Positions 1-56,900 of a DNA stretch of 64,000 nt are shown here, piece after piece. Under the pieces are notes generated by a model. That model saw nothing but the letters and a program-made list of their open reading frames with translations, searched no databases and had not been told where the DNA came from. A program made the translations under genes and the position numbers. Position 1 is the first letter of the stretch; each line of letters starts with the position of its first letter. Origin of the DNA: Bolinopsis microptera (taxonomy: Eukaryota; Ctenophora; Tentaculata; Lobata; Bolinopsidae); NCBI RefSeq assembly GCF_026151205.1, contig NC_087079.1, positions 11,460,635 to 11,524,634 of the forward strand, in the 5' to 3' direction.

Positions 1-44
1 ACATTTCATAGAAAAAATGAATCTGATTAAACAAAGTAACCACC

Positions 45-3000: not shown

Positions 3001-3383
3001 ATCTCCTACTGAACCCTAGAATAAATCCGGGTGAGATACTAGATAACATCGATGAGAGGAGCAAAAAGTTGTTTCCTCGCTACTCAAGCAGGAGCACAGA
3101 CACTAAAGTAATGTCTCTCTTGCATGGCCATGACATCACCTTCACAGCATTCAAGGCAAGGGTTGCCAACAACTGCGACCCTCAGTGTCCGAATTGTCAG
3201 ATGTTGGACAACAATTACCATCGAATCTTCTCTTGTCCACTGTACCGCTGTTCCTACAGAGAAACCATTCAAGAGCACTCCACTAGTGACCAACCATGCT
3301 GGTCTATCTTAAGAGATGGTAGTGATGGCAGCATCACTGCCTTCCGATCTTTAGCACAGATCGCCATCGATGAACTATCATAG
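45..3383 (+). CDS. Non-LTR retrotransposon ORF2: endonuclease-reverse transcriptase
   Basis: The 1112-residue polyprotein is predicted to nick target DNA and reverse-transcribe the element's RNA. An N-terminal apurinic-type endonuclease (about residues 10-230) shows ALQETLL, GDFNSRHISWGD and GGSIIDLAL. A central reverse transcriptase (about 490-780) shows YRPISISS, EGFRPQRNTA, LLCIDFSKAFDSV, GLPQGSVLAPLLF and the catalytic YADDG. The C-terminus (about 1050-1075) has a Cys/His cluster, CPNCQ then H and C, as in several Jockey/I-type elements. There is no internal stop or frameshift, so the copy is young or still functional. ATG at 45 follows an ACC Kozak-like context (CCACCATGA). Assignment to the Jockey/I/CR1 assemblage is inference; clade needs a tree. 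Confidence 0.93.
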   Translation: MITKNNGSLHICQINVSGLSNRSITAIDRFNFKFKNDIVALQETLLDNSRPHLNTFHNLDTFSVNNSRGVSTSVSPRLVPQQISELQDTTTDALWVTVRYNSTVVMIGNVYVNHSLTSTNNLSSALTNITKALQYCSKFKIKDVIIIGDFNSRHISWGDIITTDRGRQLDSFIAQHNLTCITPNTNTFVSHNGGSIIDLALLKGKVCRLYQSSSIDSESELFTGAPNRGPLPIIHQFCHAQTAQSASPLLYWDIDKTDWNAWCGSLNRALLLGITGRINSYIDPLKLWQDFKNILSAIGNEWIPLKKVSTHSKPFWNSLLTDLSRTLQAAQETMKTSYTPYNISLHKQAKEEFSNTLISEKNKWIHQQLENLNVAQSQIFWKNYKKTLTNKPNEYMGNLMDGGILHSDRTQKENILYKSFFSGEHMNGCSFDHVFEQEINSCYDNIISTQFPTDHLDPIINDHLNGKIGLEEVTLALNAQNSNAKSFDTDNLHPKILKHLPVSALQILTKLYDLVLETGVWVWEVSNVTFIKKDGKDNYMNPSAYRPISISSYVGKLLEKILERRIKLHCELEGLLDEEQEGFRPQRNTARYLYKLVATLDECKRKKLTTFLLCIDFSKAFDSVWVKGLIFKLSKYQIQGNILRIINNFLLSRKVRLRVNNSLGFQRSCGWFGLPQGSVLAPLLFILYISDMLCKDQLPLECSSNSSLFKYADDGSIAVSHIDPICAHRIMQLMCKYLHVWCSKWKLIPNCDKNKTECIMITPTSSSAPDVTAFGPLIIGSRPITYTCQSTVLGLRIDDKLTFKSHAKFKLKQCWFAWYRITQNSTRHRGLNASSLKMLFKTVVLTKLLYAAPIWLKDNLDTFKDFYARVLLKISGSTHHPPKDLTSVALGIPPLEISYKMITIKFIIKALTSDPFMQGLILQLEEAKAHRYQHHIDEIRKFLTWTRGSNELNRSRIDLLTSVHNGVVSYSKDEITRFMDFTWNKHLLLNPRINPGEILDNIDERSKKLFPRYSSRSTDTKVMSLLHGHDITFTAFKARVANNCDPQCPNCQMLDNNYHRIFSCPLYRCSYRETIQEHSTSDQPCWSILRDGSDGSITAFRSLAQIAIDELS

Positions 3384-28700: not shown

Positions 28701-31700
28701 TTTTACTAATTTATTCAAATTTTCTAATCATTTGATTGTTCTTGTGTTTTTATACTGAACATATATGCCCGTTTATTGTTTAACGATTTAATATAGGCAG
28801 CTGCAATGTACAACTTCATAAGATACAGTGTACTGACTAAGTGCACTGGCTCAATGCACGACCAGAGCCCCCAAATGCGGTTGTTGTTTTATTTTTATGT
28901 AATTTTACAAATATGCAACAACCATCAATTGTTATCATTTCAGTTTTAAAAGTAACAGACGAACAATTGACCGATGTGAAAAGGAAAGCATTTGAAGTGC
29001 CCAAAACAAGGATAACTGGTAGGTCATTGATTTTTAGCTAACATTTGGGTTCGTTGGGGACGGACTCGAGGACGCACTTTTATACTTGGATCACATTCTA
29101 TTACGTGAGACTTTTTCTGGTCTTTTCGGACATAATGAACTTTTCAAAAATGTGGTAAAGGTTTTAATTGTTAAAGATTAGCTCATATTAACTTCCCCAG
29201 ATTTGTGCAGTTTGATTGCATTGTTCTTGGAAATGAAATTGTATAAAAAGTTTCGTGCATAACACTCCATATTTGGCCAAATTGGAATAATTTCGTCTAA
29301 AATCCCTCTGGAAAGCTAGTTTCCTTATTTTGTTTTGGAACGCGCAGAACGTTAGAAATATCCAAAAGTTGGTAACAGTGCTTATGCTCACAGTGGAAAA
29401 TATCTGGATTTTATTCTTGCATAAAAGCGATAATGCAATTATCGCGTGTTTATCGCCCAATATGCGATTATCGCGTGTTTATCGCCTAACATGCGATTAT
29501 TGCGCACGATTATCGCCTAACATTGGCGATTATCGCTAAATGCACGATAATCGCCATTAAATAGTGATAATCGCTAAAATCTGCGATGATAATGCAATAG
29601 TGAAATGATGAGTTAATTTTGACATACTGTGAGTCATATACTGCATCAACATTCAACACTGCACTGAATCAAAATTATGGTTGAACAGCAATAAAAAATA
29701 TTATATTTGATATATATATTAAACCTTGTGCCTGACGCCGCGCGCAGCGGATCCTGCATTTTCATTTTGAGTTTGACCCTGGCCTCACAATTACATTTTA
29801 CAATCAAACTATAACCTTCAAAGGCGAAAGTAAACACAAGCATCAACATTTCATATTTCCAATTTCATTCCTCTTCCCCCTGTTTAACGGACGCAAACGC
29901 TATTTACGAATGACCCCTGGGCCCCTACGACAAACCCGAAACCATAAACATAAACTTCTATTCAATTTGTAATTCGAAAATTATCTCATAATTCCGTTAT
30001 GGAAATAAATCGTATACATGAATAAGAATCTGAATCAATACATATTGTTCATTCTGTCTGCCGATGGCAATTATATCAATATTATATTCAAATAGTACAC
30101 GGAGTTCATTACTGCATTTCAAGTTTGACACGCGCGGTGAGCCGCGCACTTTTGTTGGATTTGAACTATACGAAAATCAAATTATGAATCGAGCGCTACT
30201 AGGGCGCTCACTTAGCGCTTAGTTACCAGCCAACTTTACTTGTTATGATTTGTACCTCTTAGTGTGACCTGGATCAGAATATTTTCTTCGACTTCAGTTT
30301 TCAAAAGTGAGAGTGCTTGGATCGAATATAGATATATCTCTGTAAGAGTGTATAAGATGTTACAACTTACACACGTGCGGTAATCGGTATCATGTCACCA
30401 AGTGACTTGTCTATTGTCGTTACCAATGGCCACACTATTCACCTAATACCGTAATCTGCTTGACAGCTCGATCGAATTAAATGATTGCATTTGTTGTTAT
30501 AAAGAACGAAATTAAGCACGTTCATATCGATTATCACATTAGTGAGAACATGAGTGGAAGCAGGACAGAAATGTTCGCAGGGTTAACTGTAACACGACAG
30601 TTAAGACCACTTGGTTCCGATGGCTTCCGCAGGAGATGTTGGTTGTAAGTTATTATACATCGAACTTGTTTGTTTCCTCTTACCTACATTTTTGCTGACT
30701 CGACCTGCAATCTGCACGAGTTGTAAGTGAAATTATATAAATCTTCTAATTGTAGGTATATTAAAGTATATTAAAATGTAGGATTTTTTCCGATTTTGAC
30801 CCGGGGATATACTTTAATATACTTTAATATGGTTGGCCCCCCCCCCCCCCCCCAAATTTTACTCTTCAGGCACATGAGAGCCAGGTTCCCTACTCTCGAA
30901 GCGGTTCCCGAAATAAAACGAGCTGTGGCACGTTTCTGCCATATCGAGGGTAAATAAGTTTTTATCACTTGCCATTGCCTCACTTCTTATTAGGAACTAG
31001 AGAAGTTCTCGCAAAACATCATGGCTTAACAAATGACAACTCTGATCGATATATCTTTTGTAAAAATCGTTCTTTAATCATTAAGGAGATGAATACATTT
31101 CAGAAAGTGGCGTACACTCTGATTGGGTGAGGGAGGTCCAGCTACGATATAAGAAATATGCTGTTGACAAGAAATGCAAGAGGAAGGGGGCAGCAGTGAA
31201 GCAGAGAGCAGCATCGGATCATCCCCCAGTTACTGCTGCTGGTACCCAGACAGATCCACTGCACGCATTGCACTGCAAGGTAAGCTGCACCTGTATCACA
31301 TATGAACAATCAAATTTCATCTGTCATGATATGAGATCCACTGAATCCCTGTTGAAACAAAGCTGTTAAAATAGTGATATTCAGGATTGTGTGACCAATG
31401 CCATGCGGCATGTCCTGGACGAAAAGGCGGCGGAAATTGCGGAGATGAGGACCAATCTCCTCCTCCACCAAGCACCCTCTCCGACCCCAGCACCCGTCAG
31501 GTAGCATAGCAGAATAAATATGACCCGGTGTCCAATGTTTTTGAAATGGTTGAAAATCGTCATTTAGTATGCAGTTTAATTCCATTGTAATGTTATTGCC
31601 AGGGTTATGTAATATGTTTGTACCCAGGCTAACAATATTTAGTCAAATTTAAAACTGATATATAACACATCTAAATATTGCAGCAGTATCCTGATCAGAA

Positions 31701-32288
31701 CCCCTGACCCCATCCGCTCTCGCTCGCGAACTCCCTCCGTCAGTTCAAATGGGCCAGGGTAAATTTTTAAGCCATAAAAGTAAATGAGTTAATGTATGTG
31801 GTGTTTTGGTAAGTCAACTAGTTATTTTATTGATAAGAAAGGACTCTTATGAAGATTGGCGATGCGTTATATCATTTGTGATGAAATCTTAACACCATAT
31901 TTATTTCAGACCGTCCCGTTCCAGTCACGGTACACCAGTCTGTGCTGTGCAACCACGATCACGGATTAATTCAGCAGCATCCAGGTATTAGGCAGTGAAC
32001 CCCCCTCCTGGCTCTCCCTCCCTGGCCCTCCCTCCCTGGCTCTCCCTCCCTGGCTCTCCCTCCCTGGCCCTCCCTCCCTGGCTCTCCCTCCCTGGCCCTC
32101 CCTCCCTGGCCCTCCCTCCCTGTCCCTGCCTCACTCATTCTAATTTCAGTATCAGTGCGGACAACTGGGGGCCCGAATCTGTCATAGAAGCCAGAGTCCG
32201 CATGGCTGCTGAGAGGAAAAAAAAGGCCTCTCAAAAGAAGCTCACTGCGACTGAGATTTTCCGACAGCGTTGGGGAGGTTCAGTTTAA
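25787..32288 (+). CDS. 11-exon gene, 404-residue basic protein of unknown function
   Basis: Exons with GT-AG borders and matching phases: 25787-25937, 26434-26571, 28541-28666, 28944-29018, 30581-30644, 30870-30949, 31104-31279, 31385-31500, 31684-31758, 31910-31984, 32150-32288; the sum is 405 codons including TAA. The N-terminus is basic (NEKALSNKRKAKRVNSEP). A compact, Arg-rich folded-looking segment spans exons 5-7 with RQLRPLGSDGFRRRCW, FPTLEAVPEIKRAVARFCHI and SDWVREVQLRYKKYAVDKK, possibly DNA-binding. A Ser/Arg/Pro-rich stretch (RTPDPIRSRSRTPSVSS) follows, and the end is Lys-rich (AAERKKKASQKKLTATEIF). I do not recognise the family. It lies directly upstream, same strand, of the transposase-like gene and might be co-transcribed or even joined to it. 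Introns carry minisatellites. Confidence 0.65.
25896..26134. repeat. 42-bp minisatellite spanning exon 1 and its splice donor
   Basis: The unit GGGAGTAATCAGGAGTCAGA... ending CCCCGGTTAGT begins inside exon 1 and continues five to six times into intron 1. Each copy keeps a usable donor (CCCCG|GTTAGT). Only the first keeps the gene open, because reading through it meets TAG at once. The last copy is cut at TCAGGTATAA and joins the 9-bp microsatellite. Confidence 0.9.
26135..26428. repeat. (TATAATAAT)n microsatellite in intron 1
   Basis: About 32 copies of a 9-bp AT unit. It ends six bases before the acceptor of exon 2 (AACTAACAG), so it supplies almost the whole 3' part of the intron. Confidence 0.95.
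27238..27462 (+). other. Intronic 74-codon frame, unrecognised
   Basis: Lies in intron 2 of the 25.8-kb gene. It reads a hydrophobic N-terminal stretch followed by a Lys/Ser/Glu-rich part and DIGWRDEPYLF. It could be a remnant of a mobile-element gene or chance; no domain is recognised. Confidence 0.2.
29395..29592. repeat. Array of GCGATTATCGC palindromes, copy A
   Basis: At least eight full or partial GCGAT[AT]ATCGC words occur within 200 bp, bounded by ATTTTATTCTTGCA on the left and AAAATCTGCGAT on the right. A related array at 37234-37437 has the boundary words in inverted orientation. It lies in intron 4 of the 25.8-kb gene. Confidence 0.7.
31990..32132. repeat. TGGCTCTCCCTCCC minisatellite in intron 10
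   Basis: About ten 14-bp units, TGGCTCTCCCTCCC or TGGCCCTCCCTCCC, fill most of a 165-bp intron and act as its pyrimidine tract just before the acceptor of the last exon. Confidence 0.9.
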
Positions 32289-32660
32289 CTATAAAACTTG
32301 TAAATACACTGAATTTATTATTAATTTTTGAAAAATTATGTGATGTTTGTTCCGTGATACTAACTTTTTTTTGTGACACTAATTCATTAACTCTATTTGT
32401 GATACTAATTTATTAACTAATTTTATGATACCAATTTTGTGACACTAATTTTGATAGACTGTGGGATACTGAAGGGAAAAGAAGCAGTTCTAACGAGCTC
32501 TTCTCAAACACAAGGATATATCTTGTGAACTTGGCTGGTATATATGAAACATTTGACACGGAGTTGTAGAGTGAGCTATGTGCCTCGCCAGGGCTAAAGT
32601 AGTGAATGACCTTGCTGTACGGCAAGTTAAACAAGGATCCTCATCACCACTATCATTAAG

Positions 32661-35600
32661 CCGCACAAGGAAATAAAAACTCCTGCTGACAGTGTTAAAA
32701 GGAAGCACACTCATGTCTTCAAGGATATAGTAGAGAGCCAGGTATCCTGAATAACGTTATCGGTAATAAGTTAAACTGTATATCACTTCCGCAGTTTGCC
32801 ATCATAGCCATACTGAAACTGAACGAATCCCTACAGGCAATTTAGTTCAATCAACATGAATATTTGCAGGCTGAGTCAAGCTGTTCAAAATCTAATGACT
32901 CTGATATCGAATCAGTGACCAAACGGATCCGAACTGCGGAGTTAACATCACTCTCTAAAGAGCAGCGGGAGTATGTACAGGCGTTGGCTGGCGTTGACTG
33001 TAAGAAACGAATTGATGCTCTTCATGTTGCTATGTTCAAAGCTGAATGTAAGTTGTTAAGAACGATACAAATTGTCATTATCATTACAACTTAGCGGGTG
33101 GAAAAGTTAATTCTTAGTGTGCAATAGATTTCATCGCAATAAATTAAATGCTGACTCAATTTTTAGCTAACACGGGGACAGCCAATGTACGAAACAACCT
33201 GCGGCCACTGCTAAAAAAATATGATATAAAAATGGAATCAGAGAAGGAAATCAAGTCAATGGAAGAATTATACACCGTGAGTGCTCAGTTGAACTCAAAA
33301 CCAATTATATATCATTTTGGTGTCATGGCGTACTAGCATATAGCATAGCACAACCCAGATTTTGAAATATAGAATATATTGTACATCAAAAATTAACATC
33401 ATTCATGTTTTAAGGTGAACTATATGAGTGCAATGGTTTCTCTTTCCCATAAAGCTGCAGCACATGATAAAAATGAAACTAAAAGTGGTGAGCTGTTAGC
33501 AAGACGTACCCCAGTAGCCTACTGTGATGGACAGGAACTGCTAACCAAAACACTTATAACCTTGAAGAATACCGGTATTTCAAATTTCTAGAGATTATAG
33601 AGCTGTTTACAAAAAATTAATTTGATTTAAATAGGTCAAGGTGGGCAGTTCTTTTAGCGGTTTTTATCACATAGTTCATTAACAGCCAGCTGAATTCTAT
33701 ATATTCCAGGCCAGTTAGATGTGGGAACTGACAAAACTATACATGTTAAGCTGTTTGTAGACGCAGACACGAGCTCCACTAAAGTGGCAGTCAATGTGCT
33801 AAACCAGCCTTCGTGTAACAGCTCGTATGCCCACCCAATGCTGGTGTACACCGAAGCTCCGGACCATCGCAGGAACATGGAGGTCATATTTAAGGTATTT
33901 CTTCATGAAATCTAGACTTCAACTTGAGCTTATTTGTATTAACAGTTTACACTTTAAAAACTGGACAGGCATGAGACAGATAACATTACAGGTGGTTAAC
34001 CGGGACCTACCACAGCTCAAGAACTTTGTCTTCTGTGGAGCACATGTGAAGATGATTCTCTGTGCAGACACAAAGGCACTGTGGGCTATGCTGGGTATGG
34101 GCAGCAATGGGACGTTCCCCTGTCCACTGTGCGAGGTACATAAAGACCTGATGCAAGTACCCAGAAGCCAGAGAGCTCTCTGCAAGCCCCGAACTTTTGC
34201 GGGAATTATGCAGAACTTTGATGCTAATATGAGGTACTTATAAACTTATAATACCAGTCATTAACTCGCTGATTGCAGCTCCTTCATTTCACAAAGTACA
34301 AACATTTATCTCGATGTATATTGTATACCATGTATGTATTTCGATAGATGTATACCATTTCTGTAAACTGTTAGTATCGAGTTTTTCCACATCAGAATGA
34401 CTCAGTGTAACCCGAGATCCCAAGCCCAGTTTATGAATGTTGCTTCACGACCCATCACAGACTGTTTCGGGGAGGATTCTGATTATCTCATAAACTGGGT
34501 CGCTGTTCCGTTCTTGCACATAGTAAGTGATCGAAGCTCACAGTTTTTTATTCGAACACCGCTCATGCTGTTCCTGATATGTGGCAAATAGAACTAGGTA
34601 CTAGAATTATTTGACTGATTGTCATGACTCTTGATACTTCCTTTAGAACATCAAAGTCGGGACTTTTCTGTGGACAGAGTACGGTAAACTGTGCGAGGAG
34701 ATAGACTTTGTACTCGCTTGCAATGTGGCAGACGGGTTTCTTCCCAACAGCTACAGCAGTACGACAGACTTTGGAGCCATGATTCTGCGCATCGAACAAG
34801 GTAATGTAGATTCATCGATGAATGTATCACTTCATTATTGAAAAATTGGAGGCTTTGCAAACTGATATATAATGAGTTGAAGAAAATAAGTGTGGCACTG
34901 TACATTTTAGGTAACCGTGTGGCCTCGAAGTGCAACAGTGGGCCCCTTTCCTCGAAGTATGAGCAATATTTGAGGGGCATCAATGTCACTCCTGAGGCAT
35001 ACCATGGTGTGTCCCTGACCGGCGTGAGAGCAGGATATTTGGTTAAAGCCAATCACACTCAATTTTGGACAGACCACTTCTATAAAAACGAGTAAGTTCT
35101 GTGAGATCAGTGCGATTTAACTCATGTTACTAATGGTTGTCGTTTATAGTGAAATAACTACCACTTTTTACTTGTGATTGAAGGCTAAAATTCTGTATTG
35201 ATAACGAGCTTCTGTGACTGACCGATTCTGTGTTGACAGGAAGATAAGACCACAGGACAAGTTGCACTTTCAGCAACGGCTCCTTGCACTGGATCGCATT
35301 AAGTCCTCGTATAGAGATCTCTTAGTTCTCGGTGGCAAAAGTGGGAAAGTGAAGAGTCCCCGTGAGATCGAAACTCTTGTCAAGGCCAGGGACCTCTTCT
35401 TGGCAGAGTACCGAAAGTTTGGTCAGTCCACATCGGTGAAGGTATTGTTGTTATCTCTTATAGCTTTACCTGTTGTCTCCAACCCCTAAATAGCCTGGAA
35501 GAAAGTTATTTTCATGACATATTTATAAGAAACTCCGGCCCAACCGAACTCTTAAAATTGCAACATCATTTCAACACCACCTCCACCAGATACATCTCCT

Positions 35601-35992
35601 TGAAGACCACTTTTTGGAGCAGATACAGCTCTGGGGGATGTTTTCTGGATCTTTCAATGAGCAAGGTGGTGAGAGTACTCACTCCCTTTTTAAGAATCAC
35701 GAACACATGACAAGTAAGAAATAACTTGGGCTTTTAGAATTAATTGAGTTTGAGATCAAATTTTGATTTCCACACGTTGAATAGTAGTGTGTAAGGGGTC
35801 GTTCATATATTACTTAACCATCGAAGGTGAGGGGGAGTACATAATATGTGGACGACCACCACTTTAATACAGAAATGTAAGCAACATAAATTTTCAGACC
35901 ATGTTCGTAATGACGAAGACCGAGTTGTGAAAAAGTGCGAGCTAGCAACACGGAAATACCTGTTGAAAGTGAAATCCAAGCTGTGTGACTGA
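32661..35992 (+). CDS. 12-exon transposase-like protein (N-terminus unresolved)
   Basis: Exons with matching phases: (32661)-32741, 32870-33047, 33167-33276, 33415-33574, 33710-33894, 33992-34233, 34396-34522, 34647-34800, 34911-35091, 35240-35441, 35590-35713, 35898-35992; at least 612 codons. Motifs in order: HVKLFVDADTSSTKVAVNV, a candidate first Asp; a conserved-looking Pro/His stretch (YAHPMLVYTEAPDH); VKMILCADTKALWAMLGMGS followed by FPCPLCEVHKDL, an Asp 18 residues before a CPLC zinc motif; then IHLLEDHF and FNEQGGESTHSLFKNHEHM, with a Glu well placed as the last acidic residue. I infer an RNase H-fold DDE transposase relative, of a kind I recall as common in cnidarian and fish genomes. 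Eleven introns suggest a resident, possibly domesticated gene. The start is uncertain: an ATG frame at 32578 would join the exon if one A were added to the A run near 32671. Confidence 0.65.
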
Positions 35993-35999
35993 AATGGGT

Positions 36000-37230
36000 C
36001 AATCATGATGGATTTAGTGTTTGGGACAATCTGCTATATGCCTAAAATTGAAAGATTGTTAATTTGGTGATGCTTCACCCTCTGTTCATATTTTCTACTT
36101 GATCAATAATGATATTCGCCACATATTATGTAAAACGCCGCTTATGTTTTGCCATTAAAATTTTTTCGTTATAGTAGTGACTGCGACTGAAACCGCGCAT
36201 CACGCAAGTTTTTGTCGCCGCGCGAGGGTGATTCAATTTTGTCCACTTCGCCATAATTCTCAGAGGATGTAATTTGACGAGTGCGGGACAATTTTGAGCG
36301 CAAGGAATCACTTGAATCGAAGATAACGATTGAGCTGACAATTTCTCCGGTAAAAATTAGACCTTAGATAACTGAATTGGGATGACATCGGAAATAACTC
36401 TGATGCGAGCAGGAATACACTATGTCATACTCATAGCAGTAATACTTAGACGTGAATATTAATATCCGATGGATCAAATTAGTGTATATGTTATCATTAT
36501 TATATATATAAAGTGTGCCTCACTGGGGCACCCTTAAGTAACAGTTCCAGCTCGATAGGCCTCGTAACCGGGATGGATAGAGACAAACGAAATACATCAT
36601 CTCGTCACAAGCAATCAGATCTAAGTTAAACGATAAGGCCAGGACATACTATGAGCATTGAATTAACTGTCAAAATGGTAACCTGAGCCCTAGAGGTGAT
36701 CACATGCTATAAGCCTAACGGAAAAGTATTCTAAAAATATAAATCTAATCGTTAAGTTAAACACATTTGAAAGCGGCTGTCAGATAATATAAACGGTTCG
36801 GGATGATGGCTGTCGAGGTTCGGGCATGACGCGCCCGGCCGCACAATAAGCGGTGACTAGGGAAGTCACAACAAAAAGTCCCCTCTCAGTCTAATCTGAG
36901 CTCTCGATATTTTGGAAGAATTCTGGATTCTAGCTAGAAATAGGTAAATTAGTCAACGAACATGAGATGAATCATATATTAACTTAAAGATGAAAACCCG
37001 CTAATCAACGTTGACCAAAATTAAATTATGTGGGCTTACAATTGAATCATATAGAGTAACTATTTGATCATTTGACGTAGCCATTTTGTCAACGCAGCAT
37101 TTTGTCAATTTGTCAACTCTAAATATTCGACTGCTGTTAATCTTTTAACTTTAATTATAAACTTATGTTACCACTGAAAATCTGAAATGGCTCCAGTAGA
37201 TCTGTAGATGTGGCAGCTAGGTTCTCGTTA
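36000..37230. other. Intergenic, no supported gene
   Basis: Mostly AT-rich. A more GC-balanced segment at about 36510-36940 (containing CGCGCCCGGCCGCACAATAA) differs in composition from its surroundings and may be a dispersed element or non-coding RNA copy, but no ends or structure were identified. Confidence 0.4.
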
Positions 37231-37233
37231 TAT

Positions 37234-37437
37234 ACTGCGATAATCGCAAATTGAGGCGACAATCGCACGATAATCGCATAATGAGGCGATTATCGCACAA
37301 GGGGGGGGCGATAATCGCAAAATGAGGCGATAACCGCGCGATAATCGCAAAATGAGGCGATAATCGCACAAGGAGTCGATTATCGCGCGATAATCGCGAG
37401 GGAGTGCGATTATCGCTGCAAAAATAAAATCTGCGAA
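37234..37437. repeat. Array of GCGATAATCGC palindromes, copy B
   Basis: About ten copies of GCGATAATCGC or close variants separated by AAATGAGGC-type spacers, ending in GCAAAAATAAAATCTGCG. The end word is the inverse of that beginning copy A at 29395, so the two arrays are related and oppositely oriented. Confidence 0.75.
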
Positions 37438-38110
37438 ATGGCCAACATTTTCCACTGTGTGCTGGAGGTTGCGCGCGCATCAATCTCCTGCAATCAAGCA
37501 TGTATTTCTGATCAATATGAGCATTACCTGTCAGATACCTAATTTGAATAAAGACCATTGGGATGATTCCCAAACACTCGAGATATAGAGTTTTTGGCTA
37601 TCCTAGATTTTAGGTCTGTCTGATGGTAAAGTCGTGTCCACTCTGTCGTATCAGAAATTAAATCGTGATTACTTCAAAAACTGATTGAAATAGCAGTACA
37701 GAAAACATTATTCTTTAAAATTTCGTATGAATGGTTTGCCTAAAGTTGCCAGCAACAATGTTAGCAAATTTATTTGACGATATCCTTGGAAAGTATTTGA
37801 TTCCTGTCAACTTTGGCTGTCAATAATTTGACTTTTTTGATTTCCCTAAATTTTAATCAAATTTGGAGAAATAAACTGCATTTCACGTCCGAAAAAGGCG
37901 TTTCTCTTGTATCAAATATGGAATTTTTCTCGAAGGAAAGTCAAATTATATGACGTTTCTTAATTTACAACTTATCAGCTGAAAATCTATCAAAGATTAA
38001 AGTATTAACATACTTCAGATAATCCGACTAAAGCTGATACAGTAAATACGGACGAGTCGGAATGCGAGATTAGCCAAGTTCTTCAGGTATTTAAACTTCA
38101 CATCCGATCA
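37438..38110. other. Intergenic, nothing supported
   Basis: AT-rich; no exon or repeat boundaries identified. Confidence 0.5.
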
Positions 38111-38152: not shown

Positions 38153-39078
38153 TATAACCTTGGAGCTTTCCAAGGTGACTGTCTATCCGGCTGTCTGTTC
38201 ACCCTTGTCTTGGCTGGTGCTTTGAATGAACTTAGATGGACTATAACAATCAGTTTAGATAGGCCGATCCCCCCGATTACTATTGCTGGCCTTCCCTTGA
38301 CACTGAATATGCTGATGATGTTGACTTCAATAATGAAGAGGAAGACAACTTGAGAGCTATTTTGCCCCAGGCAACAGCTATACTCGAGAAATGGAACCTC
38401 TTTGTCAATGAAGACAAAACGGACTTCACTCATGTTTATTTAGCTAGTACGGGTGAAGTTGACAGTGATGGAAAATTAGTGTCGGGGAATGAAGCATGGA
38501 GGAAAAGTATCACTCTAGGGTCCGTCTTGTGTAGCAAAGCTGATATTCAGCGTCGCATAAACCTGGGATATGCTGCTTTCAACAATTACAAGAACGCCTG
38601 GAGTGATAAACTGCCCCTAAACAAACGTCTAATACTGTACAATGCTTTAGTCGTATCGGTTCTTATGTACAACTCATCCTGTTGGGCCGTCCCCAAAATA
38701 TTCCTTGAAAAACTAGATGTTGTTCACCGCAGACATCTTCGCACTATTTTGAATATAAAGTACCCAGGAGTCATCTCCAACAAAAACTTGTATAAACGCT
38801 GCAATGCTGAACCATTGTCAGAAAAAGTGGCCCGTAGTCGGTGGAGAATGTTAGGACATGTTTTGCGGGGTCCTATTGACGGACCAGCGTTTTCTTCCCT
38901 CATTTTTGCCATCAATACACTGGACTTACCAGGGAGAAGAGGAAGACCCCAAAGCAATCTATTCTCGCTGATTGTGCATGATTTATGTAAAAGAAATCTT
39001 TATTTGAATAATATCTTTGACCTGCATTATCTCCGTAATTTGAGTTATGACAAGAGATATTGGCGGAATTTGCAATGA
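38153..39078 (+). pseudogene. 5'-truncated non-LTR reverse transcriptase fragment
   Basis: The fragment begins within the RT domain: GAFQGDCLSGCLFTLVLAGA, then after a frame change near 38295 the catalytic EYADDVDF. The second frame stays open to 39078 (about 242 codons). It carries the thumb/C-terminal signature LILYNALVVSVLMYNSSCW, RRHLRTILNIKYPG and RWRMLGHVLRG, and ends in a Lys/Arg/Tyr-rich tail. Typical elements also have an endonuclease and the first half of RT, both missing here. The frameshift and truncation make it a dead copy. The clade differs from the element at 45-3383 (QGD rather than PQGS); a 3' AATAAATAAATA stretch follows. Confidence 0.85.
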
Positions 39079-44973: not shown

Positions 44974-47900
44974 TTTCAAGACCTGGAAGACCTAAAGAAC
45001 TCCTTGAAGATGGTATCAGCACACTACCTCCTCCTCCTCATGACAGTGATCGTGGTTACACAGCAGGACCATTTGCTAATCCTGAACACCCCTCACAGTG
45101 CCACCCGCCCCGCCCCCTGCGCTCTTACTTGCACGGGGGTTAGTAAGCACGACGAGGTAAACCATGGCTGGACGCAACACGAGACTAGAGCCTCACGGGT
45201 TTACAAAATGATCAATTTGAGAGAGTGTGGATTTGTTACCGCTCCAGTCATCACAGCTACAACTAGTGGACGGCTACTAGTACTACAACTAGCTGTCCTC
45301 CCGTCTCGATAAATGTGCTTGGAAACGTCGGTTTCGGAGTGTATATAGAGGGTACTAGGGTGGGGGATGTTAATAGCAGTAGGTGTGACGTTTATTGGTC
45401 TGCTAACGGGTTCAATTGTTAAAGTCGTGGAAGATCCACCAATCAAGATCTGTTCAGTATCATTAATAGAATAATGTCTATTTTGGGTTTACTTTGTCTT
45501 AAAGTTTTTTGTTTTGTTTTAAAACTATGAAATTTTTTATCATTGACAACAACTAAAAAACATTATAACTAAAAAGATAACATTTTAATTCAGCCAAATG
45601 ACAACCAAAATTGAAATTCTTTTGAGACATCATTCCTTCTTCGTTTCTCTCTTATCGTGAAATATTTTCAAACTGATAAAAATCACTTATATTGTAGGAA
45701 TCGGGCTTAACACTTCACAGCAACAAGTTTATGAGTCATTTTACAATAACCAAATACCAGTGATTCTGGTTACTATAACGGTAGATAATGGCCCATTCTC
45801 TACTCCTAGGATAACGTTTGTTGATTAAGGTTTGCTACAGATGGCATGCCACTGTTGAGGTAAATGGAGCAACCTCGGACTAACGAGACATCGCCTAATA
45901 AAAAATTACGCATATTTACTGTAAAATGGGGGGGGGGGGGGTGTCACGTCCGTCTATGTCCGCTTGTCCGCTTGTCCCATAGAATCCAAAAAGGACAGGA
46001 CATAGGCGGACATAGGCGGACATAGGCGGACATAGACGGACATAGGCGGACATAGGCGGACATAGACGGACATAGACGGACATAGGCGGACATAGGCGGA
46101 CATTAATGGACACCTAAATTGCTAAATAAAATGTTCAATTTTTGCTGTTATAGGGGGGATCATGTTTTTTGTCCGTTCGGTACCCTATATTTTCAAAACG
46201 GACAAAAAAAAGAGCGGACAAAAATGGACAAAAATGGACAAAAACGGACAAAAATGGAAATAACATTTAGATGCTTCCTCCTCCTACTCTTCCTCCTCCT
46301 CCCCCTGGGTCTTCCTGATCTTCCTCAGTCCTCTTCCTCCTCCTCTCCTCAGTCCTCTTCCTACTCCTCCTCCTCGTCCTCAGTCCTCCTCATCAGTCCT
46401 CAACAGTCCTCCTCCTCCCCAGTCCTCCTCCTCCTCCTGAGTCCTCCTCCTGGGTCCTCCTCCTGGGTCCTCCTCCTCCTCTCCATCCTCCTCCTCTTCC
46501 TCCTCAGTCCTCCTCCTCATCCTTCTCATCAGTCCTCCATCCTCCTCCTCAGTCCTCCCTCAGTCCCCCTCCTCCTCCTCCTATTCAGTCCTCCTCCTCC
46601 TCCTCCTCCTCAGTCCTCCTCCTTCTCAAATCTCAGTCCTCCTCAGTCCTCCTCCTCCTCCTCCTGAGTCCTCCTCCTCCTCCTCCTCTTCCCTCTCAGA
46701 CATCCTCCTCAGCCATCCTCCTCGGTCCTCAGTCCTCCTCCTCCTGGGTCCTCCTCCTCATCCTTCTCATCAGTCCTCCTCCTCCCCAGTCCTCTCCCAG
46801 TCCCCCTCCTTCTCCTCCTCCTATTCAGTCCTCCTCCTCCTCCTCCTCCTCCTCAGTTCTCCCCAATCCTCCTTCTCATTTCTCCTAAGTCCTCCTCCTG
46901 AGTCCTCCTCCTCCTCTTCCTCCTCTTCCTCCTGAGTCCTCCTCCTCCTCCCTCTCAGTCATCCTCCTCAGTCATCCTCCTCAGCCATCCTCCCCAGCCA
47001 TCCTCCTCAGCCATCCTCCTCAGTACTCCTCAGTCCTCCTCCTTCTCAGTCATCGTCAGTCCTCCTCCTCAGTCCTCCTCAGTCCTCCTCTTCCTCCTGG
47101 GTCCCCCTGGGTCTTCCTGATCCTCCCCAGTCCTCTTCCTCCTCCCCTCCTCAGTCCTCCTCCGATCCTACTCCTCCTCCTCGTCCTCAGTCCTCCTCAT
47201 CAGTCCTCAACAGTTCTCCTCCTCCCCAGTCCTCCTCCTCCTCCTGGGGCCTTTTCCTGGGTCCTCCTCCTGGGTCCTCCTCCTCCTGGGTCCTCCTCCT
47301 CCTGGGTCCTCCTCCTCCTGGGTCCTCCTTCTCCTCTTCCTCCTCCTCCTCCCTCTCAGTCATCCTCCTCAGCCATCCTCCTCAACCATCCTCCTGAGTC
47401 CTCCTCCTCCTCAGTCATCCTCGTCAGTTCTCCTCCTCCTCCTCCTAGGTCCTCCTTCTGGGTCCTCCTCCTACTCCTCCTCCTGGGTCTTCCTGATCCT
47501 TCTCCTCCCTCTCAGTCATCCTCCTCAGTCATCCTCCTCAGTCATCCTCCTCAGCCATCCTCCTCAGCCATCCTCCTCAGTACTCTTCAGTACTCTTCAG
47601 TCCTCAAAATTTTTGTCCGCTAATGTCCACCAATGTCCGCTAATGTCCACCAATGTCCGTCCAAGTCCGCCAGAAAATTGGCTGTAACTTTTTTTGCTCA
47701 ACAGATCCAGATTGAAAACTCTTTGGGGTGGTTCCTGACACTATGGACAACACATTCCTGTAAAAATCAGCTTGTTGCAAATTTTTTCCCAGACATTTTG
47801 CATTATTCCCTAACTATTATTGTAACCTCCAATAGAAAGTCACGTCCACTTTTAAGCTAACGTCTGTTACAGGGTTTAGGCACTGGACGTGGACAATGGA

Positions 47901-50900
47901 CATAATCCTTGGCCGAGTTCTGTACGTGAAACTATAGGATGATGCGCGGTGGGCGGTGCCACCTCGAGATAATATTATGATATAAGTCCTGGAATTATAA
48001 ACAGATTAATCTAGTATTTCAGCCATGAAAAATCAAACTTTTACTTCACCGTTATTCTATCATGTAACAGTTGTCAACTCGCTAATCCTCTACAACTTGA
48101 TTTGTATCCTTTGTTAAGTCGAGGTAAATGTGTGAACTTTACCACCTCTAAGGGTTTACAATGATCGGAATACTGATGAATGAGAGGGTAAGTTGGATAA
48201 GTACAATGTGGACACCTGCTATACCGCTACTTTATTGTTGTTCAATTGTTGTGCTGAATTACAATTAGTCGAAGTAATTAGTTGGTATTAAAAGCGTTCT
48301 AAAAAGAGAGTTTGCTACTTTCTCCCACAGTTTCAAGACCTGGAAGACCTAAAGAACTCCTTGAAGATGGTATCAGCACACTACCTCCTCCTCCTCATGA
48401 CAGTGATCGTGGTTACACAGCAGGACCATTTGCTAATCCTGAACACCCCTCACAGTGCCACCCGCCCCGCCCCCTGCGCTCTTACTTGCACGGGGGTTAG
48501 TAAGCACGACGAGGTAAACCATGGCTGGACGCAACACGAGACTAGAGCCTCACGGGTTTACAAAATGATCAATTTGAGAGAGTGTGGATTTGTTACCGCT
48601 CCAGTCATCACAGCTACAACTAGTGGACGGCTACTAGTACTACAACTAGCTGTCCTCCCGTCTCGATAAATGTGCTTGGAAACGTCGGTTTCGGAGTGTA
48701 TATAGAGGGTACTAGGGTGGGGGATGTTAATAGCAGTAGGTGTGACGTTTATTGGTCTGCTAACGGGTTCAATTGTTAAAGTCGTGGAAGATCCACCAAT
48801 CAAGATCTGTTCAGTATCATTAATAGAATAATGTCTATTTTGGGTTTACTTTGTCTTAAAGTTTTTTGTTTTGTTTTAAAACTATGAAATTTTTTATCAT
48901 TGACAACAACTAAAAAACATTATAACTAAAAAGATAACATTTTAATTCAGCCAAATGACAACCAAAATTGAAATTCTTTTGAGACATCATTCCTTCTTCG
49001 TTTCTCTCTTATCGTGAAATATTTTCAAACTGATAAAAATCACTTATATTGTAGGAATCGGGCTTAACACTTCACAGCAACAAGTTTATGAGTCATTTTA
49101 CAATAACCAAATACCAGTGATTCTGGTTACTATAACGGTAGATAATGGCCCATTCTCTACTCCTAGGATAACGTTTGTTGATTAAGGTTTGCTACAGATG
49201 GCATGCCACTGTTGAGGTAAATGGAGCAACCTCGGACTAACGAGACATCGCCTAATAAAAAATTACGCATATTTACTGTAAAATGGGGGGGGGGGGGGGG
49301 GGTGTCACGTCCGTCTATGTCCGCTTGTCCGCTTGTCCCATAGAATCCAAAAAGGACAGGACATAGGCGGACATAGGCGGACATAGGCGGACATAGACGG
49401 ACATAGGCGGACATAGGCGGACATAGACGGACATAGACGGACATAGGCGGACATAGGCGGACATTAATGGACACCTAAATTGCTAAATAAAATGTTCAAT
49501 TTTTGCTGTTATAGGGGGGATCATGTTTTTTGTCCGTTCGGTACCCTATATTTTCAAAACGGACAAAAAAAAGAGCGGACAAAAATGGACAAAAATGGAC
49601 AAAAACGGACAAAAATGGAAATAACATTTAGATGCTTCCTCCTCCTACTCTTCCTCCTCCTCCCCCTGGGTCTTCCTGATCTTCCTCAGTCCTCTTCCTC
49701 CTCCTCTCCTCAGTCCTCTTCCTACTCCTCCTCCTCGTCCTCAGTCCTCCTCATCAGTCCTCAACAGTCCTCCTCCTCCCCAGTCCTCCTCCTCCTCCTG
49801 AGTCCTCCTCCTGGGTCCTCCTCCTGGGTCCTCCTCCTCCTCTCCATCCTCCTCCTCTTCCTCCTCAGTCCTCCTCCTCATCCTTCTCATCAGTCCTCCA
49901 TCCTCCTCCTCAGTCCTCCCTCAGTCCCCCTCCTCCTCCTCCTATTCAGTCCTCCTCCTCCTCCTCCTCCTCAGTCCTCCTCCTTCTCAAATCTCAGTCC
50001 TCCTCAGTCCTCCTCCTCCTCCTCCTGAGTCCTCCTCCTCCTCCTCCTCTTCCCTCTCAGACATCCTCCTCAGCCATCCTCCTCGGTCCTCAGGTCCTCC
50101 TCCTCCTGGGTCCTCCTCCTCATCCTTCTCATCAGTCCTCCTCCTCCCCAGTCCTCTCTCCCAGTCCCCCTCCTTCTCCTCCTCCTATTCAGTCCTCCTC
50201 CTCCTCCTCCCTCCTCAGTTCTCCCAATCCTCCTTCTCATTTCTCCATAAGTCCTCCTCCTGAGTCCTCCTCCTCCTCTTCGCCCTCTTCCTCCTGAGTC
50301 CTCCTCCTCCTCCCCTCAGTCATCCTCCTCAGTCATCCTCCTCAGCCATCCTCCCCAGCCATCCTCCTCAGCCATCCTCCTCAGTACTCCTCAGTCCTCC
50401 TCCTTCTCAGTCATCGTCAGTCCTCCTCCTCAGTCCTCCTCAGTCCTCCTCTTCCTCCTGGGTCCCCCTGGGTCTTCCTGATCCTCCCCAGTCCTCTTCC
50501 TCCTCCCCTCCTCAGTCCTCCTCCGATCCTACTCCTCCCCTCGTCCTCAGTCCTCCTCATCAGTCCTCAACAGTTCTCCTCCTCCCCAGTCCTCCTCCTC
50601 CTCCTGGGGCCTTTTCCTGGGTCCTCCTCCTGGGTCCTCCTCCTCCTGGGTCCTCCTCCTCCGGGTCCTCCTCCTCCTGGGTCCTCCTTCTCCTCTTCCT
50701 CCTCCTCCTCCCTCTCAGTCATCCTCCTCAGCCATCCTCCTCAACCATCCTCCTGAGTCCTCCTCCTCCTCAGTCATCCTCGTCAGTTCTCCTCCTCCTC
50801 CTCCTAGGTCCTCCTTCTGGGTCCTCCTCCTACTCTCCTCCTGGGTCTTCCTGATCCTTCTCCTCCCTCTCAGTCATCCTCCTCAGTCATCCTCCTCAGT

Positions 50901-53900
50901 CATCCTCCTCAGCCATCCTCCTCAGCCATCCTCCTCAGTACTCTTCAGTACTCTTCAGTCCTCAAAATTTTTGTCCGCTAATGTCCACCAATGTCCGCTA
51001 ATGTCCACCAATGTCCGTCCAAGTCCGCCAATGTCCGTCCGGGTCCGCCAATGTCCGTCCGAGTCCGCCAATGTCCGTCCGAGTCCGCCAATGTCCGTCC
51101 ATGTCCGCCAATGTCCCAAAAAAACACGTCTGTTGTCTCATAGAATCCAAAAAGGACAGGACATAGGCGGACATAGACGGACATGACACCCCCCCCCCCC
51201 CCCCCCCCAAAATGTAAATCGAAACCTTCATTCCCCGGGATTTTTGATCCATATCACCCCTGCTCATTCATTGGTCCAATTCGCTGACCAATATACAGTT
51301 ATAAAATGACACACCACCTCCAGCCACTTGACGTATCCATAATTAATGGTCTTGCTAAAAGTTCATGCTCAGCAAATACGCATGAACACTGTTTTCCAGC
51401 TGAACAGGGGAATTAGCTCAGAGAAAGTTAAAGTAGATATTCCGTCTTAAGTTATCATTGGTGCTAATACTTTCAACACTACTATATAACAAATAATTAG
51501 AGCTTATGAATACGATGTTTTAACATTGAAACGTTGAGTAATTCCTTTCCTGATAAGAGCATTTTTCCTTGTCGCATCAAACGGGATCAATACAAATTTA
51601 CACAAGAAACCATTGCAACCATGCGACTCATAAACAATATTCCAATCCGGATTTTACACGTTACCATTAGGATACAATTTAGATTGTCTGTTATCAGTCC
51701 TCTAATATAATCCGCACACTCGGAAAAAAACGAACCATGTTTCTCTCGCCACATTGAACGAATTAAGTGCGGGAATTGTCAATATAATTATTTTTCACCG
51801 ACTTCATTATTTCAGGATAACATAAAATTGATTATACTAATAAAATTGATTACACTAATAATTTCATGATTACAGGTGGACAGTTTGGATTGAGAATAGT
51901 GGGAGGTAAGAAGATGGCTGGTGGTACTCTGTGTGCCTTCATCGCCTCCATCACTCCCGGAAGTGCAGCAAGTCGGTCACCTGATCTCCACGAGGGTTCG
52001 ATTTTTATATGTTCTTTTTTGCTGAATCGCGGTAAATTGGAACTGGTAGTGATCATGAGTTGGTCGATTGATCACACAGCTAGCTACCATTTACTTCATT
52101 AATCTTATGATAACAAGGGAATTCAAAAAAGAAAACTTTCCTCTAAATTTCATTCCCCAGAGCAGAAGTGTTGTTATTTTTTCTTTAATGCATCATTTTA
52201 TAGACATTTTGTCTCGCAAACCTTATACCACACTACTCTCTAGGTGACCTTGTTTTGAGATGGAATGCCACCATGCTGATTGGTTTAACGTACGAAGAGT
52301 GTCAAGCTCTCCTTGACGACTGTCATTCTGTCGACCTTGTTGTCTCCAATTTCCTCAGGTAAAATTATTCAACACTTTCTTTTCTTTTTTTTTGTATTTT
52401 CGCGCCTTTATTTCCACCCGAATTTCTCTAAGAGAAGCTATGAAAGTTTAAAGCATGCGAGTAATAATCACCCTGGGTGGCAGGCGGGCGGAATATTTGG
52501 ACTAGTGGTCCGGTCTAAGATTACTGGCTAACACTGCAGTAATTTCAGGGGCAGCTACAGGAGGTACCGACCGAGATCCTCCAACACCAGCAGGACGGGG
52601 AGTGTTGAGAGTATACTGAGAGGAACTACTAACAAGTGGATCACTCTTACTAGGAGGGGTATACACGCTAGACAGTCAGATACAAGGTAACACCTGGCTT
52701 CTAGCTGATTAGTTGAGTGATTAATTGAGGGAAAGACTTTATCATTTCATATAGTCAAAAGAATTGTTTTAAATAACGATCTTAATGATTTTATTACCAA
52801 CCGGGATTTGTGAGTAGATTATTGAAATTTTGCTCGCCGAATTGATAGAGCGACCGTTTTTAAACATATTTCCCTAACTTGAAATAATTTGGTTTAATGA
52901 ATTATTGTTCACTGGATCTGTCACATGATTTCAGTCGAACAACAGACGACTCTAACACGATTGAAGAGAGTACAGAGGATGAAACATCGGGATTATCGAA
53001 AGCAGACCAAACATCTAAAATGAAGGTGTTTTTTCTATTTCGTTTTTCACCTCTTTACTTTACTTGAACACGAATTCAGATTTTCTTTTAAATAAAGTAT
53101 AAATAAATTTCATGAAATTTGTCGTTTAATTGTAACCTACAGTTTTATTTTCCAAATTTTCCCTACTAATATCTTATTCTTAGTTGGAGATGAGACTGGT
53201 TCATGTTGCCATGGAGAACAGGTTATCAGTACACCTGATCCAGGCAGCCAACATACCCTACAGAGACGGTATAGAGGGTATTGATATCTTCTGTAAACTT
53301 TACTTACTTCCCGATATCAGGTAGATATTATCTTACATTTTATTTTATTTTAAACTTTACTTACTTCCCGATATCAGGTAGATATTATATTACTTTTTAT
53401 TTTATTTTAAACTTTACTTACTTCCCGATATCAGGTAGATATTATATTACTTTTTATTTTATTTTAAGTTACAATAGAAACAATTTTAATTAGATTATAG
53501 TCCAGGTATCCCCAATTGGACTGGGACTAATCCTGGACTGTAGAAAATTTAGAATTTAAAATTTAAATATAAAAACAATTTTTTAAATAATAAAAAAGGG
53601 AAGAGAGGGTCTTGATATCTTTTTAAAATGTTTTAATAGTAAACACATCCTTTCTCTTCAGCATGAGTGCAGATGCCAAAAAACGATCGAAGACTGCAGT
53701 GCGGACATACAACCCTTATTGGAACCAGCATTTTGAGTACCAGCCGATTCTTGAGACAGAGGTAGGGTAGCATTAATTAATTAATTAATTAATAATATTG
53801 ATATCTTGGTAAGGATAGAAAGTAGGCAGGACTCTGATTAAGTTGAAGTTTTAAATTTTAACCTTTAATAACTAAATTTAAACCTTCAATTTTCGCCCTG

Positions 53901-56900
53901 AGTTTAAGTTTGTGACCCTGATTAATAACCCTGATTACTTACCCTGACTTGTGATCCTGCTGGGTTTTAGCCCTGACTTTAAAACTCACATATAAAACAC
54001 TAGATTCAAGTGATTTGTATAACATACAGTATGGTATTAGTATATAGTATAACTTAGTTATTATTAAGCTCGATTAAGTAAAACCCAAGATTTATTTACA
54101 ACCTGACGGTCTGACTACAACCGCCAACTCGTGCATGTAGATATCATAACCGTCGTTACTCTGCAGTTTGACCGTATCACCATGGATACACCCTGAATCT
54201 GGTTGGAAGCTGGTTGGTACTAGGCTTGTAGTTTCCACTGATAGAATGAAATTATCACACCATATCCCCTCACATGAGATCTGACTGGTGGGGGGAGAGA
54301 TTTTAAAGGACCAGTTAACTGAAAAAAAAGTTATCCTCATATTTTGACAGATTGTGACAAATAGCAAACTGAGCAACGAGTCGAAATTCCTAAATCTCTA
54401 ACTGCTCTCTAACGCGTGTAATTAGCGTTTGTATTATTTGGCGATGACGTCATAAAGTCCCTTGCGCGCACAGAGCAGCTCGTGAGATTGTATTTTACAG
54501 GTAAAAATGGACATAATACAATGTTTCTCCCCCAAATAACTCGAAAAGTAAGTGTTTTAGGGTACATGTTGCTTCATAAGTTGTATATAAACATGGCCAT
54601 TCTGCACAATTTGCATCCATTCAAAAATCTGTAGGGCCTTCATAGCCCAATTTACGAGATACCCATATTTTTGCATGATTTCTGGAACCGGAAATCAGTT
54701 TTTTTCGCCAATAACTGAAAAAGTAAGCACTTTAAGGCATCTGTTTCTTCGTAAGTCATATATTAATATGCTAAATGCGGTTTCTTTTGCACCCTGTTAA
54801 AGACTCTATCACGATCCTATCGAAAATGGGCTCAGCACCACGCCCAAAATGGTTTTTGGCGAATTTCTCGAAAAGTAAGGATTTTAGGCCATGTGTTGCT
54901 GAATAACTCCTATATAAACTTGCATATGCGGCTTCGTTTAAAGCCTATTTTGAAGTCTCCACGACCTTCAGAAGCAAAGGGTCGGTTACGTTATTGGGTC
55001 AATATCGGCGTGGTCAATATGTCTCCAACCGAAAATCGTTTATTCATACTTTTGGGAAGGTCCTTTGCAAAATTTCGGGAGTATACGAAAATTTGCAGGT
55101 TCAATTCCATAAATGTCAATAAATGACTAGACTACACAAGTTTAGAGTTAACTTTAGAGAAACTCATAAATCATTATTATCTAAAATTAAGCTGTCAGTG
55201 TCCATGATCAACCTATGGCTACAATGTTTTACGTGAAAATTGAAATGTAAAAATCAGGAGTAATATAAAAAGTGTATTTTTAGATTAAAGTGCTATCTCA
55301 TAGTTTTAAGATTGTATAGATTAACGTTTGTCGTTTAGGCCATCTAAGAATCGATCGTGCCGTAATATATATGGCCAAAGAATAATAGGGTCTTGGAAAT
55401 TCTATAGTTGTTCAGTGGGTCGATTGACTGAACACGTTTGCACTTGGTATTTAATTTTATGATCATACAAGTAGGACGATAACTAGGTAAGTCAAATTCA
55501 AAACACTCCGCACACTGTACAGTCCAATCAGTATTTAGTAGACCGGGTATTTTTCGGTTCCCACGGCACCGTTCTGATAGGAGCTACTTCTACTAATGGT
55601 CCCATGGGAACGGCCGTAAAATAGCCAGACTTCTTGTCTCCTGTACTGTCTGGCACGTGTGGATTAAAGTATAGTAAGAAATTTCGCTATGCTAAAAATA
55701 TAATTGCTCTCGGAACTATGTCTTTTAGGACAGCGAACCATTCGACTGCTCGCATTCTTCCGAACAACTGTAATATTATATTACAGAGTTACACTCTTAT
55801 CAGCTATATTTAATATATAGCACATTGTTTTGTGTATTAGTTTCATGTACTGGGGAAAAATAATCGGTACAGTCTCCCTTCGTTTGTAATGAAGCAATGA
55901 AAACAATCCAAAATTATCACATATGACATAACTTGTAATAGCAGAGACTTTCTAACCGTACATTCACCCGCCACTGTTCAAGAACTTATGTCACTGTTTA
56001 AAATCCTGACGTGAGCACTGTACATCCAATCAGCTATTCATATAGTTAGGGTGATAGCCAAAACTATAAGGATTTTGTAGAACTAGGGAAATAGTCATAA
56101 CTCTAAAATTTGAGTGAGTAACACGTGTTTTATTGACGATGATAAACATTTGTGCATTGTATTACGCTATGCAAGCGCGCACTGAGGGACTTTATGACGT
56201 CACGCGGCCACAGCTTATTATTGCAATAACACGCGTTACACGTACGCTAGAGAGTTGGTTCTTTCGGCGATACGATTCTTTACCAGTTTGTCACAGCTGA
56301 TTTAAATCTTAGCCAAATTGGAGACTACAAATTTTTCAGTTAACTGGTCCTCTTAAAGGACCAGTTAACTGAAAAAAAAGTTATCCTCATATTTTGACAG
56401 ATTGTGACAAATAGCAAACTAAGCAACGAGTCGAAATTCCTAAATCTCTAACTGCTCTCTAACGCGTGTAAATAGCGTTTGTATTATTTTGGCGATGACG
56501 TCACGAAGTCCCTTGCGCGCGCAGAGGAGCCCGTGAGACTGTATTTTACAGGTAGAAAATGGACATAATACAATGTTTTTCCCCGAATAACTCGAAAAGT
56601 AAGTAATTTAGGGTACATGTTGCTTCATAAGTTGTATATAAACATGGCCATTCTGCACAATTTGCACACATTTAAAAACCTTTAGGGCCTTCATAGCTCA
56701 ATTTACCAGATACCCATAGTTTTGCATGATTTCTGGAACCGAAAATCAGTTTTTCGCCAATAACTGAAAAAGTAAGCACTTTAAGGCTTATGTTTGTTCG
56801 TAAGTCATATGTTAATATGCTAATTGCGGTTCTTTTGCACCCTGTCTAAAGACTCTATCACAATCCTATCGAAAATGGGCTCAGCACCACGCCCAAAATG

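Follow-up and report, generated by a model that had tools for sequence, protein, structure and literature searches.

A recently active, probably Chapaev-like transposon with unequal ends in the ctenophore Bolinopsis microptera

The 64-kb stretch of Bolinopsis microptera contig NC_087079.1 analysed here (the window) carries an intron-rich transposase-like gene, which a sequence-only reading had proposed to be a transposase relative kept as a resident gene of the host. This feature lies within a defective copy, 8.07 kb long, of a cut-and-paste transposon with recent activity, and the gene itself is cut at its 5′ end, neither of which that reading had seen. The transposon is very probably a Chapaev-like member of the CMC superfamily that was mobile until recently, and a two-protein mechanism with unequal ends is proposed for it below. 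What is new here, and worth following, is a 10-bp asymmetry between the two ends of the element.

A broken copy of a multi-copy transposon

DNA alignment of fetched copies defines sharp element borders at 29389 and 37459 (Table 1), where the inverted tips CACAGTGGAAAAT/ATTTTCCACTGTG are flanked by a duplicated TGCT. Eight copies with two ends were chosen by exact match to the outermost 60 bp of the window copy at each end; L032 and L033 were excluded from this count, since neither stretch shows the exact left tip. Target duplications of 4 bp are present in seven of the eight (TGCT in the window, and GACA, TATA, CTTT, ATAC, GTCT and AGTT), the eighth, L017, having none, and also occur at L019 and L020, which represent related subfamilies. 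Relative to the copy at L029, each copy shows 2 to 20 substitutions over 6.6–8.7 kb, and besides these few substitutions most two-ended copies have internal deletions; L015 is more divergent (93% over its 5′ part). When the genome (264.65 Mb, 232 contigs) was searched with the left 200 bp, 12 places were found at 99–100% and one more at 80%, while the right 200 bp was found at 12 places at 100%, weaker matches being related ends. A protein query covering the stretch between the first two candidate catalytic aspartates (D1–D2) gave 36 match rows, many of them near-identical and stop-free. Terminal repeats, 4-bp duplications and near-identical copies together therefore mark this as a young DNA transposon present in multiple copies.

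Two full-length copies (8694 and 8695 bp) contain an identical 695-aa transposase frame in 13 exons. The 623 bp deleted from the window copy comprise exon 1 and the start of exon 2, and its transposase gene therefore has neither a start nor the N-terminal finger. As a non-autonomous copy that retains both ends and a second gene, it could be moved only by a sister copy.

Domestication of a RAG1/Transib-type transposase as a host gene would explain the long conserved frame across many introns. It would also be compatible with the low proportion of nonsynonymous differences (pN 0.143) against a saturated proportion of synonymous ones (pS 0.767) over 693 codons aligned with L019, whose transposase is 75% identical and has the same 13 exons. 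This last comparison is one between two transposon subfamilies, not between host-gene orthologues, and so fits a living transposon lineage. Given that the gene lies within terminal repeats and 4-bp duplications, that about a dozen near-identical copies are dispersed in the genome, several of them internally deleted, and that the window copy lacks exon 1, domestication has next to no probability, and we reject it for the window copy on the grounds of copy number, ends and duplications. A plausible claim of domestication is thereby corrected: despite its many introns and its conservation, this transposase gene belongs to a mobile element.

Some further observations were made on individual copies. 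L017, apparently intronless, was considered as a spliced retrocopy and rejected, as it has a 106-bp in-frame internal deletion that swaps four residues for one and hence is no proof of splicing. At C6:17679872-17692221, two copies of the transposon seem, by their end positions, to lie head to tail, 7 bp apart, the first being a 3.65-kb deletion derivative. A 118-bp stretch inside the element at L030 (about 2275–2392) recurs at 99% identity in L022 and L025, and so is probably a small mobile repeat inserted into the transposon.

The transposase and its probable distant relation to Transib and RAG1

The gene structure described in the sequence-only reading was borne out: all 11 introns, from 32741 to 35898, are bounded by GT...AG, and the 12 exons form one open frame with its stop at 35992. 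Since L019 retains the full 13-exon structure, with low pN against saturated pS, chance does not explain it. The motifs KLFVDADTSS, ADTKALW...CPLC and EQGGESTHSLF are all present, with D347 placed exactly 18 residues ahead of C365, the first Cys of the pair. In the 695-aa protein the motif residues are D277, D347, CPLC at 365–368, H625–H630 and E651; all five aligned relatives keep the second Asp, C(2)C, H(4)H and EQGGE unchanged, the alignment rows of partial relatives being joined match pieces. D277, D347 and E651 are the putative catalytic residues of a D-D-E transposase with C(2)C and H(4)H motifs of zinc type. The same set of motifs (D-D-E, C(2)C, H(3-4)H) is described for EnSpm, Mirage, Chapaev, Transib and RAG1 (PMC12730594).

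Profile and structure comparisons had both been proposed with the earlier reading. The best Pfam match is to DUF1280, below the Pfam cut-off (E 8e-5, 22.8 bits against 25); two of the five members of alignment A1 reach this family with an E of 1 or less. The family is said to comprise Chapaev transposases and to share a clade with RAG1 (PMC3985635). A genome-wide search with PF06918 found a single place, which does not belong to the window family, a search by single exons being blind to this family, and nothing relevant was found in NCBIfam. The RAG1 model of Pfam (PF12940) gave no row for the transposase at E up to 10. When mouse RAG1 is aligned to a profile of the transposase, its last acidic residue, with the GxES..LF context, falls in register (E about 1, not significant alone), and D..CxxC does so too, but with a negative score. 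Two low-confidence structure models of the D1–D2 stretch show a β-β-β-α-β topology. In a second structural look, HzTransib, RAG1 and RAG1L made up 23 of the first 24 rows for model 1 and 19 of the first 25 for model 2, these rows being many entries of few proteins; plain Foldseek with model 1 gave no match among 427 at E up to 0.001 (best E 0.33).

The proposal of an RNase H-type DDE transposase distantly related to Transib and RAG1 thus stands at the level of the larger clade, because of the C(2)C and H(4)H between the second Asp and the Glu, the RAG1 register and the ranking of the low-confidence models. It does not extend to Transib/RAG in the narrow sense, because the duplications are of 4 and not 5 bp and the RAG1 Pfam model finds no match. 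That the element is a Transib or RAG-like element proper is accordingly very unlikely, even with a tip heptamer that equals the consensus CACAGTG of the recombination signal sequence (RSS; PMC8289069), with HzTransib and RAG1 ranking nearest to the low-confidence models and with the RAG1 context of the last Glu in register. The same genome provides a contrast: L039 (C2:19700000-19702200; 384–2099, minus strand), an intronless 571-aa Transib-like transposase frame, was found by the RAG1 Pfam model and matches HzTransib at E 1e-18 and amphioxus RAG1L at E 2e-16; together with C3:4783511-4784548 it accounts for the two matches to this model in the genome. Direct profile comparison of the window family with L039 is weak (E 0.06, probability 0.9%), but it lines up H(4)H and the final Glu. 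Transib and the window family coexist in one genome as distinct lineages.

Second gene and subterminal palindromes

Upstream of the transposase lies a second gene of six exons that encodes 226 aa and is intact in the window copy. Its homologue at L019 is 44% identical (E 3e-59) and has the same six exons. No Pfam match was found for the second protein, and a RAG2-like partner was not searched for beyond these Pfam scans; its homologue at L019 gave a single match, to DUF5538, with an E of 0.007 that does not pass the cut-off.

The palindrome CGATWATCG occurs 13 times in the window, against about 0.5 expected from base composition. All 13 copies lie at most 300 bp from the tips of the element, with none in its middle and none outside it. 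By analogy with TNPA of maize Spm/En, the 226-aa protein would bind these arrays at both ends and help to unite them, and the 695-aa transposase would bind the CAC-heptamer tips, excise the element and insert it at a target cut with a stagger of 4 bp.

A one-turn asymmetry between the two ends

Both ends are in hand for five subfamilies (that of the window, L019, L020, L022 and L025), with protein identities down to 33%. In all five, an inner block lies exactly 10 bp deeper at the right end than at the left. Between the heptamer and the first A of the block lie 12 bp at the left end and 22 bp at the right; as the G preceding this A is common to all ten ends, 11 and 21 bp would be an equally fair count. 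What is firm about the spacing is that the two ends differ by 10 bp, one helical turn. The block sequence varies between subfamilies, yet is matched between both ends of each. At offset 10 the best inner match is 13/14 for the window and 11/14 for both L019 and L020, and 0, 70 and 131 of 5000 shuffles, respectively, reached the best match at any offset. L025 and L022 were obtained, one element each, from a scan of the surroundings of those transposases that are most distant from the window family (39% and 33% identical to it), and also show offset 10, with 15/16 and 16/16 block positions matched and with 2 and 0 of 3000 shuffles reaching the best 14-column match. CAC...GTG termini are common to the five subfamilies, CAC tips and 4-bp duplications being the criteria of the scan that yielded L022 and L025. 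The heptamer is CACAGTG in the window family and CACGGTG, CACAGGT or CACGGCT in other subfamilies, and the identity of the former to the RSS heptamer may be partly chance.

A two-ended element was found at four of the 11 relative loci scanned (L019, L020, L022 and L025) and not at the remaining seven (L018, L021, L023, L024, L026, L027 and L028), among which the right ends of L018 and L021 are identical to that of L019 over 70 bp. As a control, the parts of the window outside the element were scanned in twelve overlapping chunks. These gave five rows representing four start–end pairs, and two of them fall within a single tandem repeat. The pair at 56502–58256, perfect and found twice, has no block at offset 10 (best match 10/14, at offset −4); the remaining control pairs were judged by eye only. 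Block-shuffled loci gave 0 matches with at most 1 mismatch in 33. In L022, the inner block continues into GGGAAAAACC, which resembles the RSS nonamer, probably by chance.

By analogy with the 12/23 rule of RAG, the one-turn offset would favour pairing of a left with a right end over that of two left ends. A serious contender, to which we give somewhat less than an even chance, is that the asymmetry is no pairing rule at all, the right end simply carrying an additional ATTTYGCAG-like binding motif or the arrangement having been inherited without function. The extra 10 bp of the right end are themselves conserved (CATTTCGCAG in three subfamilies, GATTTTGCAG and GATTTTTGCG in the other two), and all five subfamilies share common descent. 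Against this, the block changes between subfamilies while remaining matched within each, always at offset 10, which implies that both ends need to be kept in step.

The signals of V(D)J recombination have spacers of 12 and 23 bp and the heptamer CACAGTG (PMC8289069). Ends spaced 12/23 are described for some Transibs, and 27/31 for amphioxus ProtoRAG, in a review according to which 12/23 asymmetry is known besides V(D)J only in some Transibs (PMC8355894). No report of such an asymmetry in CMC elements was found in the open-access literature searched, and the present case appears to be an asymmetry of one helical turn in elements that are not Transib or RAG-like in the narrow sense. The 12/23 rule keeps V(D)J joining safe. 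It is tempting to speculate, improbable as we consider it, that unequal ends forcing short–long pairing one turn apart are an old and general property of the CMC/Transib/RAG1 clade. Were this true, the 12/23 rule of V(D)J would represent a late version of a pairing rule that Chapaev-like elements, here those of a ctenophore, had used before it, and such pairing would not have been invented by RAG or by a few Transibs. The element is young, belongs to a sister group and is present in multiple copies, full-length ones among them; with its conserved one-turn asymmetry and a Transib-like neighbour in the same genome, it offers a system for the study of an end-pairing rule without RAG2.

Table 1. 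Coordinates of the transposon copy and its components in the window.
Feature	Position	Strand	Basis
Entire element, 8071 bp in this copy (8694-8695 bp in full-length sister copies)	29389..37459	+	borders by alignment of copies
Target-site duplication TGCT, left	29385..29388		comparison of copies
Target-site duplication TGCT, right	37460..37463		comparison of copies
Left terminal inverted repeat CACAGTGGAAAAT	29389..29401	+	end comparison
Right terminal inverted repeat, reverse complement CACAGTGGAAAAT	37447..37459	-	end comparison
Inner block ATTTTATTCTTGCA, 12 bp past left heptamer	29408..29421	+	end comparison
Inner block ATTTTATTTTTGCA, 22 bp past right heptamer	37417..37430	-	end comparison
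Extra 10 bp, right end only, CATTTCGCAG; similar in all five subfamilies	37431..37440	-	end comparison
Left subterminal cluster, 4 CGATWATCG palindromes	29465..29553		motif scan of window
Right subterminal cluster, 9 CGATWATCG palindromes	37238..37415		motif scan of window
Second gene, exon 1	30550..30644	+	frame and L019 structure
Second gene, exon 2	30870..30949	+	frame and L019 structure
Second gene, exon 3	31104..31279	+	frame and L019 structure
Second gene, exon 4	31385..31500	+	frame and L019 structure
Second gene, exon 5	31684..31758	+	frame and L019 structure
Second gene, exon 6 with stop	32150..32288	+	frame and L019 structure
Junction of 623-bp internal deletion	32637..32638		alignment with L029
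Transposase exon 2, 5′ part missing	32638..32741	+	spliced frame
Transposase exon 3	32870..33047	+	spliced frame
Transposase exon 4	33167..33276	+	spliced frame
Transposase exon 5	33415..33574	+	spliced frame
Transposase exon 6; first Asp D277 at 33760-33762	33710..33894	+	spliced frame
Transposase exon 7; second Asp D347 at 34067-34069, CPLC at 34121-34132	33992..34233	+	spliced frame
Transposase exon 8	34396..34522	+	spliced frame
Transposase exon 9	34647..34800	+	spliced frame
Transposase exon 10	34911..35091	+	spliced frame
Transposase exon 11	35240..35441	+	spliced frame
Transposase exon 12; H(4)H 35593-35610, EQGGE 35659-35673 (last Glu = E651)	35590..35713	+	spliced frame
Transposase exon 13 with stop	35898..35992	+	spliced frame

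Other features of the window

A 1118-aa open frame (27–3383, plus strand) with endonuclease- and reverse-transcriptase-like parts resembles, by eye, a non-LTR (long terminal repeat) retrotransposon, and a 271-aa frame just outside the transposon (38263–39078, plus strand) appears by eye to be the C-terminal remnant of a further reverse transcriptase. The segment 56502–58256 (1755 bp), with perfect 12-bp inverted tips CACGAAGTCCCT and ACGT on both flanks, is perhaps another non-autonomous element, without the 10-bp offset. At about 45998–51190, two near-identical units some 3.36 kb apart contain long TCC/TCCTCAG arrays.

Comparison with known systems

The element is Chapaev-like by its tips, the length of its duplications and its transposase core, and CACTA-like by its N-terminus and layout. 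With Chapaev, which one paper counts as a clade of the Transib superfamily (PMC4411706), it shares CAC...GTG tips, duplications of 4 bp (3–4 bp in Chapaev; PMC4079192), and a D-D-E core with C(2)C and H(3-4)H; its match to DUF1280 is weak and below the Pfam cut-off. It may differ in its N-terminal finger, which weakly resembles Transpos_assoc, the finger described for Chapaev being the Chapa zinc finger (PMC4411706). The second gene, the palindrome arrays and the 10-bp asymmetry may also set the window family apart.

The match of the N-terminal finger to Pfam Transpos_assoc, a domain typical of plant CACTA elements, is weak (E 0.001). It nevertheless raises the alternative of a CACTA/EnSpm element, rather than Chapaev, within the CMC group. 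The description of En/Spm (PMC2613891) agrees with this in size (8.3 kb, against 8.7 kb in the window family), in short terminal repeats of 13 bp, in dense subterminal motif arrays, in deletion derivatives and in two gene products, one the transposase and the other an array-binding protein. The tips of the window family are CACAGTG and not CACTA, however, its duplications are of 4 and not 3 bp, its core weakly matches DUF1280 of Chapaev, its second protein has no Pfam match, and Transposase_21, the CACTA family, gave no row for the 695-aa transposase in a Pfam search at E up to 10. We therefore regard a CACTA/EnSpm assignment as unlikely, if clearly less so than one to Transib, and retain the Chapaev-like one.

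With Transib, RAG-like elements and RAG1, finally, the window family has in common the heptamer CACAGTG and the layout of the catalytic motifs, and their solved structures rank nearest to its low-confidence models. Transib and RAG-like elements are described as generating duplications of 5 bp (PMC7204232), whereas those of the window family are of 4 bp in seven of eight copies, with none in the eighth. Compared to the RSS of RAG, the inner block of the window copy is T-rich and is not the nonamer ACAAAAACC, and the spacing is about 12/22 (or 11/21) in place of 12/23.
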